Shown here one piece after another: positions 45,319 to 49,810 of a stretch of DNA of 49,912 nt (within the stretch, counting starts at the first letter, position 1; each line of letters opens with the position of its first letter). Source of the stretch: Sphingobacteriia bacterium (GTDB lineage Bacteria > Bacteroidota > Bacteroidia > Bacteroidales > 4484-276); NCBI GenBank assembly GCA_009930115.1, contig RZYY01000007.1, positions 1-49,912 of the forward strand, read 5' to 3'. The translations under genes and the position numbers were made by a program. The notes below the pieces were generated by a model, which was not told the origin of the DNA, searched no databases, and worked only from the letters and a program-made list of their open reading frames with translations.

Positions 45319-47478
45319 ATGGAAGCAGTTGAATTAAAGCAAAAGCATAAGTTGCTCAAAACATGGGACTACAACTGGAACCCACTGGACAGAGGATACA
45401 CTGATAAAATCCTCTATCTCAATTTAAGTACTAACGAAATCAAAGAAAAAAATGTGCCCCCGATGATGAAGGAAAAATTTGTCGGTGGTCGGGGTTATGG
45501 TTTAAAACTGCTTTGGGATGCAACAAAACCTGATACAAAATGGAATGATCCTGAAAATGAGATTAACATTTCGTCAGGTCCGATTGGCGGAATAACTCAA
45601 TATTCAGGTACTGGAAAATCCATTTGTGTCTCCATATCACCCCAAACCGATATTCCCATTGATAGTAATGTTGGGGGTTTTTTTGGTCCTTTTCTTAAGT
45701 TTTCGGGTTTCGATGTGATCGAAATTCAGGGTAAAGCAGACAGAGAAGTCATCGTTTTTATCGATGGTGTCAATCACAAAGTTGAAATTTACGAGGCTCC
45801 CTATGATCTGGTGGATAGCCATATACTTGGTGAAATACTTACAGAAATGTATGCCGACGACGAAAAAGACAAAAAGAATATTGGTGTCGTTTCCACCGGA
45901 GCTGCTGCCGGTAAATCACTGATTGGGATGCTCAATTTTTCTTTTTACGATTCCAAACGTAAACTGGTTAGACTCAAACAAGCTGGTCGTGGGGGAATTG
46001 GAACTGTTTTCAGAGATAAAAAAATAAAAGCTATCGTTTGTAAAATACCCGGAGTAAAAGGAAATCTGAATAACGTAGTTGATTTGGAAGCAATAATGGA
46101 ACGAGGTCGCCGGTTCAACAAAGAAATGCGTGATTTTGATGATTCTCAGGCGCAAATGCGGTCAAAAGGTACGGTACATCTTACCAATATTATGAATGAC
46201 TACGATTTACTTCCAACCTGCAATTTCAAATATGGGAATCATCCTGACGCTTACAGAATTCATTCAGATGTTTACAAAGAACGTTTTACCCAGGGTGTTC
46301 CGGACGGTTGCTGGATTGGTTGCAACATGTCATGTGCTAAGGGTGTTGATAATTACATGCTTCGCACCGGCCCTTACAAAGGGCAAAATGTCATTGTTGA
46401 TGGGCCTGAATACGAAACAGCATCATCACTGGGGTCAAATGCCGGGATATTCAATCCCGATTTTACTATAGAAGCCAATTTTTACTGCGATACCTATGGT
46501 ATTTGTACAATTACCTGGGGGACCATTCTGGGGTTTGTTATGGATTGCTACGAAAATGGTATCCTAAATGATGAGCGAACCGGAGGGCTTAAACTCAATT
46601 TTGGAAATGCTGATGAAGCCATGGAGCTTCTCCATCAGTTGGCAAGAGGAGAAGGATTTGGTCTGATTGCCGGACTGGGTGTGCGCAAAATGAAAGAAAT
46701 GTTCAGTGAAAGAGGATGGGGTGACCCACAGTTTTTGCAGGATATTGCAATGGAGAATAAAGGGCTTGAGTATTCCCAGTATGTTTCGAAAGAATCACTT
46801 GCACAGCAAGGCGGCTATGCCATGACCAATAAAGGACCACAACACGACGAAGCCTGGCTGATTTTCATGGATATGGTAAATAATCAGATTCCGACTTTCG
46901 AAGATAAAGCCGAAGCTTTGCACTATTTCCCGATGTTTCGTACCTGGTTCGGCCTTCAGGGCCTTTGCAAATTACCCTGGAACGATGTTGAACCAGCCAA
47001 CAACGCCGAAACCGACGAACCCGCAAAAGTACCTGAACATGTTGATAATTATGTTACTATTTATAAGGCTGTTACAGGCAACACGAATTTCGATAAATAC
47101 GAACTGATCCGACAAAGTGAAAGAGTTTATAATTTTCAGCGAATTTTCAACATCAGACGCGGTTACGGATTACGCAAACATGATGCTCAGCCATACAGGG
47201 CTGCTGGTCCCGTTACTCCTGAAGAATATGCTTCAAGAGCTGAACGATATGATAAACAAATGAAAGAAATTATCGGGGTTGATCCTGAAGGGAAATCAAT
47301 TGAGGAAAAAATTGCCATTACGAGAAAATACAGAGAAGAACGTTACGAACAGCTACTCGATGCTGTATATTTACGTCGTGGCTGGACAAAAAACGGTGTA
47401 CCAAAAATTGAACACCTGAAAAAAATTGGTATGGACTTACCTGAATTGATCGAAATTATCAAAGACAAACAGGAATAA
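45319..47478 (+). CDS. Aldehyde:ferredoxin oxidoreductase (AOR)-family tungsten/molybdopterin enzyme
   Basis: A 719-residue cytoplasmic enzyme that would oxidise an aldehyde, or reduce an acid, with ferredoxin using a bis-pterin tungsten or molybdenum cofactor and one [4Fe-4S] cluster. AOR blocks are visible: KFVGGRGYGLKLLWD (about 53-67), SGPIGGITQYSGTGKS and SNVGGFFGPFLKFSGFDVIEIQGKA in the N-terminal domain, STGAAAGKS, AGRGGIGTVFRDKKIKAIV, and VDGPEYETASSLGSNAGIFNPD (about 360-381), contacting the pterin. Cluster cysteines are Cys331, Cys335 and Cys339 (CWIGCNMSC), spaced 3 and 3 instead of the 2 and 3 of Pyrococcus AOR; the fourth is probably in LQGLCKLPW near 555. It is longer than the classic 605 aa, with an extra helical C-terminus. 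It shares an operon with ppnP. Substrate unknown. Confidence 0.9.
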   Translation: MEAVELKQKHKLLKTWDYNWNPLDRGYTDKILYLNLSTNEIKEKNVPPMMKEKFVGGRGYGLKLLWDATKPDTKWNDPENEINISSGPIGGITQYSGTGKSICVSISPQTDIPIDSNVGGFFGPFLKFSGFDVIEIQGKADREVIVFIDGVNHKVEIYEAPYDLVDSHILGEILTEMYADDEKDKKNIGVVSTGAAAGKSLIGMLNFSFYDSKRKLVRLKQAGRGGIGTVFRDKKIKAIVCKIPGVKGNLNNVVDLEAIMERGRRFNKEMRDFDDSQAQMRSKGTVHLTNIMNDYDLLPTCNFKYGNHPDAYRIHSDVYKERFTQGVPDGCWIGCNMSCAKGVDNYMLRTGPYKGQNVIVDGPEYETASSLGSNAGIFNPDFTIEANFYCDTYGICTITWGTILGFVMDCYENGILNDERTGGLKLNFGNADEAMELLHQLARGEGFGLIAGLGVRKMKEMFSERGWGDPQFLQDIAMENKGLEYSQYVSKESLAQQGGYAMTNKGPQHDEAWLIFMDMVNNQIPTFEDKAEALHYFPMFRTWFGLQGLCKLPWNDVEPANNAETDEPAKVPEHVDNYVTIYKAVTGNTNFDKYELIRQSERVYNFQRIFNIRRGYGLRKHDAQPYRAAGPVTPEEYASRAERYDKQMKEIIGVDPEGKSIEEKIAITRKYREERYEQLLDAVYLRRGWTKNGVPKIEHLKKIGMDLPELIEIIKDKQE

Positions 47479-47483
47479 TTGCT

Positions 47484-47765
47484 ATGTTTAAAACTAATGA
47501 GTATTTCAATGGCAGGGTTGTATCAATCGCTTACCAAACACCCGAGGGTCCTGCAACAATTGGAGTTATGAGTCCGGGAGAATATGAATTTGGAACATCT
47601 ACCATCGAACATATGACCGTCATCTCCGGGATAATGAATGTGCTTTTACCAGGTGAAACACAATGGAAAAGTTATAAGGAGTTTGAAACCTTTATTGTTC
47701 CCAAAGATACAAAATTCAAAGTCAGACTGCAAACGGACACCGCTTACCGCTGCTTGTACAGATAA
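47484..47765 (+). CDS. ppnP: Pyrimidine/purine nucleoside phosphorylase PpnP (DUF1255)
   Basis: A 93-residue cupin that cleaves nucleosides with phosphate to give the base and (deoxy)ribose-1-phosphate. The whole protein matches the family: NEYFNGRVVSIAYQTPEGPATIGVMSPGEYEFGTSTIEHMTVISGIMNVLLPGE, then FIVPKDTKFKVRLQTDTAYRCLYR. Length is exactly that of E. coli YaiE/PpnP. The start codon lies 5 nt after the AOR stop, so they are co-transcribed, and a strong terminator follows. The pairing with AOR is unusual; a simple cupin role other than nucleoside cleavage is possible. Confidence 0.93.
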   Translation: MFKTNEYFNGRVVSIAYQTPEGPATIGVMSPGEYEFGTSTIEHMTVISGIMNVLLPGETQWKSYKEFETFIVPKDTKFKVRLQTDTAYRCLYR

Positions 47766-47959: not shown

Positions 47960-49810
47960 ATGGACAGAATGACAATTAGTGAAAAGTTCGTGTTGATCAA
48001 CAACATAGAGCTTTTCAGAGGATTAAGCCGTGAAGAAATAATGGTGATAGCCGAAGAATCAAAGGAAATGATTTATGAGCCTGGTGCTTATCTTTTTAGG
48101 GAAAATTCGCCCAGAAAACAAATTTTCCTCATCGCTGAAGGGAAGGTAAAACTTTTCAAAACCACTCCATACGGCGAAGAAAAACACATAACTTATTTCG
48201 GTCGTTATGATTTTCTCGGGGAAGGGTCGCTGCTTGAAGATGCACCACACTCTACAACCGCCCGCACTTGCGAGAAAAGTACAGTGCTGGTTATCGAAGG
48301 TGATTTATTCCGAAAATCAGCTTCCATTGCAGTAGTAACTTTATCAAATATTACCAAAGTGATTTCGAGGCGAATGCGGTATGCAAACGCACGTGCCATT
48401 AACTCCACTGCGCAGTATGAATCAGGTAAAACACGTCGTGAACATGATCTTCTTGGAGACAGAGATGTACCTTATGAATACTATTATGGCATTCAAACGC
48501 TCAGAGCACTCGAAAACTTTAACATCAGCGGGGTTACCCTCAACTTTTACCCCGATTTTATTGATTCTCTGGCAATAGTTAAAATGGCAGCCGCAAAAGC
48601 CAATCACGAACTTGGTTTACTAAATACTGAAATAGCAAATGCAATTATAAAAGCATGTCAGGAAATACTGGAGAATAAATACCATTCCCATTTTGTGGTA
48701 GATATGATTCAGGGCGGTGCAGGAACTTCCACCAACATGAATGCCAATGAAGTTATTGCCAATCGCGCACTGGAAATTATGGGGAAAAATCGTGGGGAAT
48801 ACCAGTACTGTCACCCAAACAATCATGTAAATCTTTCACAATCAACTAATGACGCATATCCGACAGCAATAAAAATAGCCCTGATTAAGGCAAACCAAAA
48901 ACTGGTTCATGTGATCAGAGAGATGATTGAGGCTTTACATAAAAAAGCACACGATTTTTCAGGTATAATAAAAATGGGGCGTACACAATTGCAGGATGCT
49001 GTGCCAATGACACTTGGCCAAACATTTGAAGCTTTTGCAGTAACCATGGAGGAAGAAATTCACAATCTGAACCGAACAGCTGCTTTATTTCTCGAAGTGA
49101 ACATGGGAGGTACTGCCATTGGAACCGGAATAAATGCCGATCCCAGATACAGCGCAAAAATTATCCCCTATCTTCGTGAAATTACCGGAACCGATATCCG
49201 CCTTGCACAAAACCTGGTAGAAGCTACACAGGACACAAGTGATTTTGTAACCTATTCAGGCTCTTTAAAAAGACTTGCTGTAAAACTTTCCAAAATATCC
49301 AACGATTTAAGACTTCTTTCATCAGGACCAAGAGCTGGTCTCAACGAAATCAACCTGCCTCCCATGCAGCCCGGATCTACGATCATGCCCGGAAAAGTTA
49401 ACCCTGTAATTCCTGAAGTAGTCAACCAAATTGCATTCAAAGTTATTGGAAATGACCTCACCGTTGCAATGGCAGCAGAAGCAGGCCAGCTTGAGTTGAA
49501 TGTGATGGAACCGGTCATCGTACAAAGCCTTTTCGAATCCATTGAAATGATTAAAAATGGTATGCAGGTCCTGACCAATCGTTGTATTACTGGTATTACA
49601 GCTAATGCAGTCCATTGCAGAGAAATGGTTCAAAACTCCATCGGACTGGTAACTGCTTTAAATCCTTTTATAGGTTATGAGGCTTCAACAAAAATTGCCC
49701 AGGAAGCTCTCCAAACCGGAAAAAGTGTGTATGACCTCGTGCTTGAAAAGAAATTGTTATCGAAAGACAAACTTGATCATATTCTCAAACCTGAGAATAT
49801 GATACAGTAA
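47960..49810 (+). CDS. aspA: Crp-like cyclic-nucleotide-binding-type domain fused to aspartate ammonia-lyase
   Basis: A 616-residue fusion in one uninterrupted frame. Residues of about 10-145 are a Crp/cNMP-type beta-roll (NIELFRGLSREEIMVIAEESKEMIYEPGAYLFRENSPRKQIFLIAEGKVKLFK), ending in the helix ITKVISRRMRYANARA; there is no DNA-binding helix-turn-helix. Its phosphate-binding cassette FLGEGSLLEDAPHSTTA (about 86-101) lacks the Arg that binds cAMP phosphate in Crp. Residues of about 158-616 are a whole aspartase, which reversibly turns aspartate into fumarate and ammonia: REHDLLGDRDVPYEYYYGIQTLRALENF, QGGAGTSTNMNANEVIAN, NLSQSTNDAYPTA, GRTQLQDAVPMTLGQ and the catalytic loop PGSTIMPGKVNPV (Ser473). 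The most direct reading is ligand control of aspartase. The gene stands alone with its own promoter. Confidence 0.95.
   Translation: MDRMTISEKFVLINNIELFRGLSREEIMVIAEESKEMIYEPGAYLFRENSPRKQIFLIAEGKVKLFKTTPYGEEKHITYFGRYDFLGEGSLLEDAPHSTTARTCEKSTVLVIEGDLFRKSASIAVVTLSNITKVISRRMRYANARAINSTAQYESGKTRREHDLLGDRDVPYEYYYGIQTLRALENFNISGVTLNFYPDFIDSLAIVKMAAAKANHELGLLNTEIANAIIKACQEILENKYHSHFVVDMIQGGAGTSTNMNANEVIANRALEIMGKNRGEYQYCHPNNHVNLSQSTNDAYPTAIKIALIKANQKLVHVIREMIEALHKKAHDFSGIIKMGRTQLQDAVPMTLGQTFEAFAVTMEEEIHNLNRTAALFLEVNMGGTAIGTGINADPRYSAKIIPYLREITGTDIRLAQNLVEATQDTSDFVTYSGSLKRLAVKLSKISNDLRLLSSGPRAGLNEINLPPMQPGSTIMPGKVNPVIPEVVNQIAFKVIGNDLTVAMAAEAGQLELNVMEPVIVQSLFESIEMIKNGMQVLTNRCITGITANAVHCREMVQNSIGLVTALNPFIGYEASTKIAQEALQTGKSVYDLVLEKKLLSKDKLDHILKPENMIQ

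Follow-up and report, generated by a model that had tools for sequence, protein, structure and literature searches.

Bacterial aspartase is mostly controlled via transcription or by substrate activation. The control of an enzyme by a cyclic nucleotide-binding (CNB) domain is in itself of a known kind, and mycobacterial Pat, in which an N-terminal CNB domain precedes a catalytic domain with a fold unlike that of aspartase, is one such CNB-regulated enzyme. Another is Bd1971, a bacterial CNB-EAL enzyme that is switched by cAMP and in which the N-terminal CNB domain controls the catalytic domain, with the same domain order as in the protein described here but with a different enzyme fold (PMC6717892). 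CNB domains without the phosphate-binding Arg have also been described. The PKA of trypanosomes binds purine nucleosides, and the regulatory subunit of the trypanosomatid enzyme has Thr or Asn for this Arg, together with an extra ribose-binding Glu at the position of PKA Ala202 (PMC10959531). In PDZ-GEF, a Met or His is found at the phosphate-Arg position, with an unclear effect (PMC2246266).

The aspartases AspA/AspB of which structures were solved (TIGR00839; PDB 6wng, 1jsw, 1j3u) have no N-terminal CNB domain. No paper that joins an aspartase with a CNB domain was found in the literature, although domain-architecture databases may list such a fusion, and the word 'lyase' is absent from a 2007 survey of CNB domains. 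The fusion described here is encoded in a window of 49,912 nucleotides (the whole stretch of DNA that was analysed) from a Bacteroidales genome.

Domain arrangement of the fusion protein

The gene is a single open frame that runs on the forward strand from the ATG at 47960 to the stop codon ending at 49810, about 100 bases before the end of the window. Its parts, with residue numbers of the fusion protein, are the following.

47960..49810, + strand: CNB-aspartase fusion gene including stop codon, 616 aa (Pfam and TIGR00839)
47960..48391, + strand: CNB sensor (Crp-type beta-roll and C-helix), residues 1 to about 144 (PF00027; AF2 and Foldseek)
48209..48265, + strand: equivalent of the phosphate-binding cassette, DFLGEGSLLEDAPHSTTAR, residues 84-102 (Glu88, Gly89, His97 at the Arg position)
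48368..48373, + strand: conserved Arg137-Arg138 of the C-helix (135/136 and 136/136 records)
48374..48430, + strand: end of the C-helix and linker, residues 139-157, indel-free
48431..49807, + strand: complete aspartase (aspartate ammonia-lyase), residues 158-616 (Pfam, TIGR00839, conserved active-site positions)

The initial annotation had described a Crp-type sensor without helix-turn-helix (HTH) that is joined to a full-length aspartase, and the family searches bear this out. The cNMP_binding family (PF00027) matches residues 39-119 (E 4.7e-19), no HTH family was matched in the Pfam search, and what comes after the C-helix is the aspartase, which begins around residue 158. This part is covered by Lyase_1 (residues 168-497, E 3e-95) and FumaraseC_C (residues 563-615), and it matches TIGR00839 (aspA) over the full length with 714.6 bits, above the cut-off of 681.2. 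It shares the full catalytic domain, the SS-loop (GSTIMPGKVNP, residues 472-482) and the substrate-contact motifs with the solved aspartases, of which 6wng is the nearest relative (66% identity in the structural alignment). The active-site motifs were rightly claimed to be complete: the Ser of the SS-loop, the Lys/Asn and the substrate-contact Thr/Ser/Asn positions are all present, and they are invariant in the 111 fused records that were scored (111/111). Since the only other close superfamily match in the genome is a class II fumarase, fumC (775 versus 664.75 bits), the fusion is the sole aspartase detected there. Upstream lie the genes of an aldehyde ferredoxin oxidoreductase (at 45319) and, after a gap of 5 bases, of a small PpnP-family nucleoside phosphorylase (at 47484), which together span 45319-47765 and are possibly one operon.

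The AF2 model of the sensor alone (pLDDT 91) consists of a beta-roll and a C-helix, and Foldseek retrieved the cNMP receptors GlxR, MtbCRP and PKG with this model (TMq up to 0.85). The single-chain model of the full-length protein is weaker (79, pTM 0.71), with low confidence for the linker and the SS-loop. The C-helix spans residues 121-143, or 121-150 if the sensor is folded alone, and is followed by a short linker. From Arg137 to the ExDLLG motif of the aspartase there are 24 residues, a spacing that was found in 128 records by pattern and in the other eight by eye. No indel occurs between the Arg-Arg of the C-helix and ExDLLG in the fused records; the only frequent indel of the sensor is located after residue 117. 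The fixed spacing between C-helix and aspartase suggests that the two parts are coupled mechanically and not by a loose tether.

Distribution and origin of the fusion

The 136 fused records that were collected come from Bacteroidales, from Ignavibacteria-type lineages and from a second phylum that is called Zixibacteria-like here, a provisional label based partly on tree neighbours and not taken from genome taxonomy. Some of the records represent one gene retrieved via two collections, and the first 111 have an effective number of 57 at 80% identity. The best 80 hits in GTDB genomes were all full-length fusions (80/80; 64-80% identity). The fusion was present in 12 of 59 genomes of the same order, with that of the window counted, in 20 genomes besides the latter among 396 spread over the phylum, and in 27 of the 133 Zixibacteria-like genomes. 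In view of this number, and since some of these last copies are on contigs of more than 0.5 Mb, contamination was rejected as the cause of the finds in other phyla. One of the carriers, Perlabentimonas gracilis (L033), is a cultured organism. The fusion also occurs in two MAGs labelled Thermodesulfobacteriota that nest among Bacteroidales in the tree, which may be due to transfer or to misbinning.

In a quick tree of the catalytic part only, of which the internal order is weak, the fusions are on one branch, together with just one unfused enzyme, from genome G026. The loss of the sensor was clean in this case, with upstream stop codons and a new start. The CNB-aspartase pairing thus arose essentially once, with one gain and one loss in both samplings. 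The sensor-less enzyme (L116; G026:C4:2500-8500) is 72% identical, is nested among the fusions and provides a ready-made natural control; its genome of 2.1 Mb is also without class III cyclase. Close relatives of the window's genome from the same genus and family (L117 and L118, in G001 and G003) do not have the fusion; their aspartase is unfused and about 52% identical. A second sensor loss, in G590, was dropped since the contig ends at the gene and supports no inference of loss. A second fusion copy in G526 (L184; G526:C1:1368500-1372500) continues into a run of N and then into HAD-phosphatase-like sequence; it looks like an assembly join or a masked stretch and was not counted as a new protein.

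The gene neighbourhood of the fusion is conserved in small subclades only; the cluster seen most often downstream, at 22 loci, is a TPR histidine kinase encoded on the other strand. At six loci (L046, L050, L062, L068, L073 and L119), the gene of a REC-PAS class III cyclase of about 535 aa is located 0.5-2 kb downstream on the opposite strand, and the gene between it and the fusion, to judge by its sequence, probably codes for a cytidine deaminase of about 160 aa. The neighbourhood was rejected as a clue to the ligand, as neighbours are not conserved and these six loci represent one subclade.

The sensor pocket and its candidate ligands

The sensor is not a random attachment: the fusion is maintained across many lineages, and the pocket is much better conserved than the remainder of the sensor, a domain that as a whole varies considerably (mean pairwise identity about 46%, versus 76% for the catalytic domain). 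Weighted conservation averages 0.90 over the cassette positions, versus 0.55 elsewhere in the sensor (Mann-Whitney p 2e-6). When the cassette was compared across the 136 fused records, Glu88, His97 and Arg138 proved invariant, and Gly89 and Arg137 were each conserved in 135, so that the Gly-Glu noted in the initial annotation is indeed kept. The Ser that it placed at the position of the phosphate-binding Arg was misassigned. In the profile alignment, 'DDSPHSTS' of the fusion lies over 'YDEPRSAT' of a PKG, which brings His97 to the Arg position, while Ser98 is the neighbouring Ser/Ala; an alignment with standalone CNB domains of related genomes gives the same H over R, the closest of these domains reading PRSA or KRSA. 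From a hand alignment with the Crp sequence, we take Arg138 to be the probable counterpart of Crp Arg123. The sensor thus has the beta-roll, the C-helix with its Arg-Arg, and the Gly-Glu and Ser of the cassette in common with the cAMP receptors Crp, GlxR and MtbCRP, but differs from them by the lack of an HTH, by His97 and by the attached metabolic enzyme. Judged by the canonical features of cAMP/cGMP binding, the ribose-binding Glu is present and the phosphate-binding Arg is not.

The retained Glu88 makes a ribose-bearing nucleotide or nucleoside a fitting ligand. The PKA of trypanosomatids, likewise without the phosphate-binding Arg, is not a residue-for-residue precedent, since the fusion has Ser90 where the trypanosome protein has its ribose-binding Glu; a cassette of that type was rejected because this diagnostic residue is absent. 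We lean towards a directly ligand-gated aspartase, in which the CNB domain binds a small, probably ribose-containing metabolite and acts through the linker of fixed length. If a small ligand controlled the enzyme by direct allostery, one would expect a conserved sensor that lacks an HTH and precedes a complete aspartase, conservation centred on the pocket and a fixed linker, and these features are present. That suggestion of the initial annotation is supported in part, without its Ser detail.

It is considerably less likely that ordinary cAMP or cGMP serves as the ligand, in which case His97 would tolerate or contact the cyclic phosphate and the signal would come from class III cyclases. The solved folds nearest to the sensor are cAMP/cGMP receptors, the six loci mentioned above have a cyclase gene nearby, the window's genome encodes a full membrane class III cyclase of 687 aa, and cAMP would fit as a ligand in Bacteroidales, where such a cyclase is present in all 12 fused genomes versus 29 of 47 unfused ones (Fisher p 0.007), an association that genome size may confound. 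The cyclase genes next to the fusion, on the other hand, reflect a single evolutionary event, and the exchange of Arg for His is found in 136/136 records. Furthermore, PF00211 is lacking in 16 of 24 fused Zixibacteria-like genomes, nearly closed ones included (the remaining 8 have a match, in several cases partial), and in 4 of 51 carriers of another sampling. The class I cyclase family PF01295 was found in 0 of 28 genomes tested in the Zixibacteria-like phylum. The fused genome G581, a single contig of 2.61 Mb, is without PF00211, PF01295 and CYTH and still keeps the PHST cassette. With most Zixibacteria-like carriers thus devoid of recognisable adenylate cyclases, the earlier remark that the ligand may not be cAMP gains weight, and cAMP or cGMP is unlikely as the general ligand unless another type of cyclase or uptake is involved.

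The CNB domain could also be a ligand-free structural module that serves as an extra dimer contact, for stability or for docking of a partner. CNB folds can lose cyclic-nucleotide binding, as did the CNB insert of family 2B encapsulins, which is located inside a capsid-fold shell protein without aspartase and, as reported, does not bind cyclic nucleotides and is without a proven ligand (PMC12407261). This insert (NF041163), which came first among NCBIfam families for the sensor half (E 1.4e-11), counts against ligand gating, and the organism with genome G026 shed the sensor while the enzyme was retained. Such a role is nevertheless distinctly unlikely, as conservation is focused on the ligand cassette and Glu88 and His97 never vary, in contrast to degenerate CNB domains.

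CooA-type cassettes lose Gly-Glu, whereas Glu88 is always kept here, and in the alignment of fused records His97 is the only Cys or His of the sensor that is invariant. It is therefore very improbable that His97 is a heme ligand of a domain that, as in CooA or DNR, senses CO, NO or redox state, even if the fold search retrieved the DNR sensor (rank 39) and the His of CooA that is analogous to the PKA Arg209 position coordinates heme (PMC2246266).

A possible route of control and its significance

In the ligand-gated aspartase that we favour, the N-terminal Crp/PKA-type beta-roll would take up a nucleotide, a nucleoside or a non-standard cyclic nucleotide. The invariant His97, with Gly89 and Arg138, would stand in for the classic arrangement around the phosphate-binding Arg, with the ribose-recognising Gly-Glu kept. 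Binding would shift the C-helix, the fixed-length linker would relay this movement to the N-terminal region of the catalytic domain, and the conversion of aspartate to fumarate and ammonia could be altered without transcription. We infer ligand binding, the class of ligand, the effect on activity, the direction of control and the geometry of the tetramer, on which the four sensors may pair, from the features described above.

With its occurrence in several phyla and a non-standard pocket residue that never varies, the built-in sensor is a clean system for finding a new CNB ligand, and it could show by what means such domains gate a metabolic enzyme that is a tetramer. The fusion could also be used as a ligand-switchable biocatalyst. 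More tentatively, and with somewhat less confidence than in ligand gating as such, we propose that the His-type CNB domain represents a new specificity, for a nucleotide or nucleoside other than cAMP or cGMP, and provides direct on/off control of aspartase in several phyla. Aspartase is at the junction of nitrogen release and fumarate supply. If the proposal is true, an intracellular signal that has so far escaped notice would be linked to nitrogen and fumarate metabolism in these phyla.
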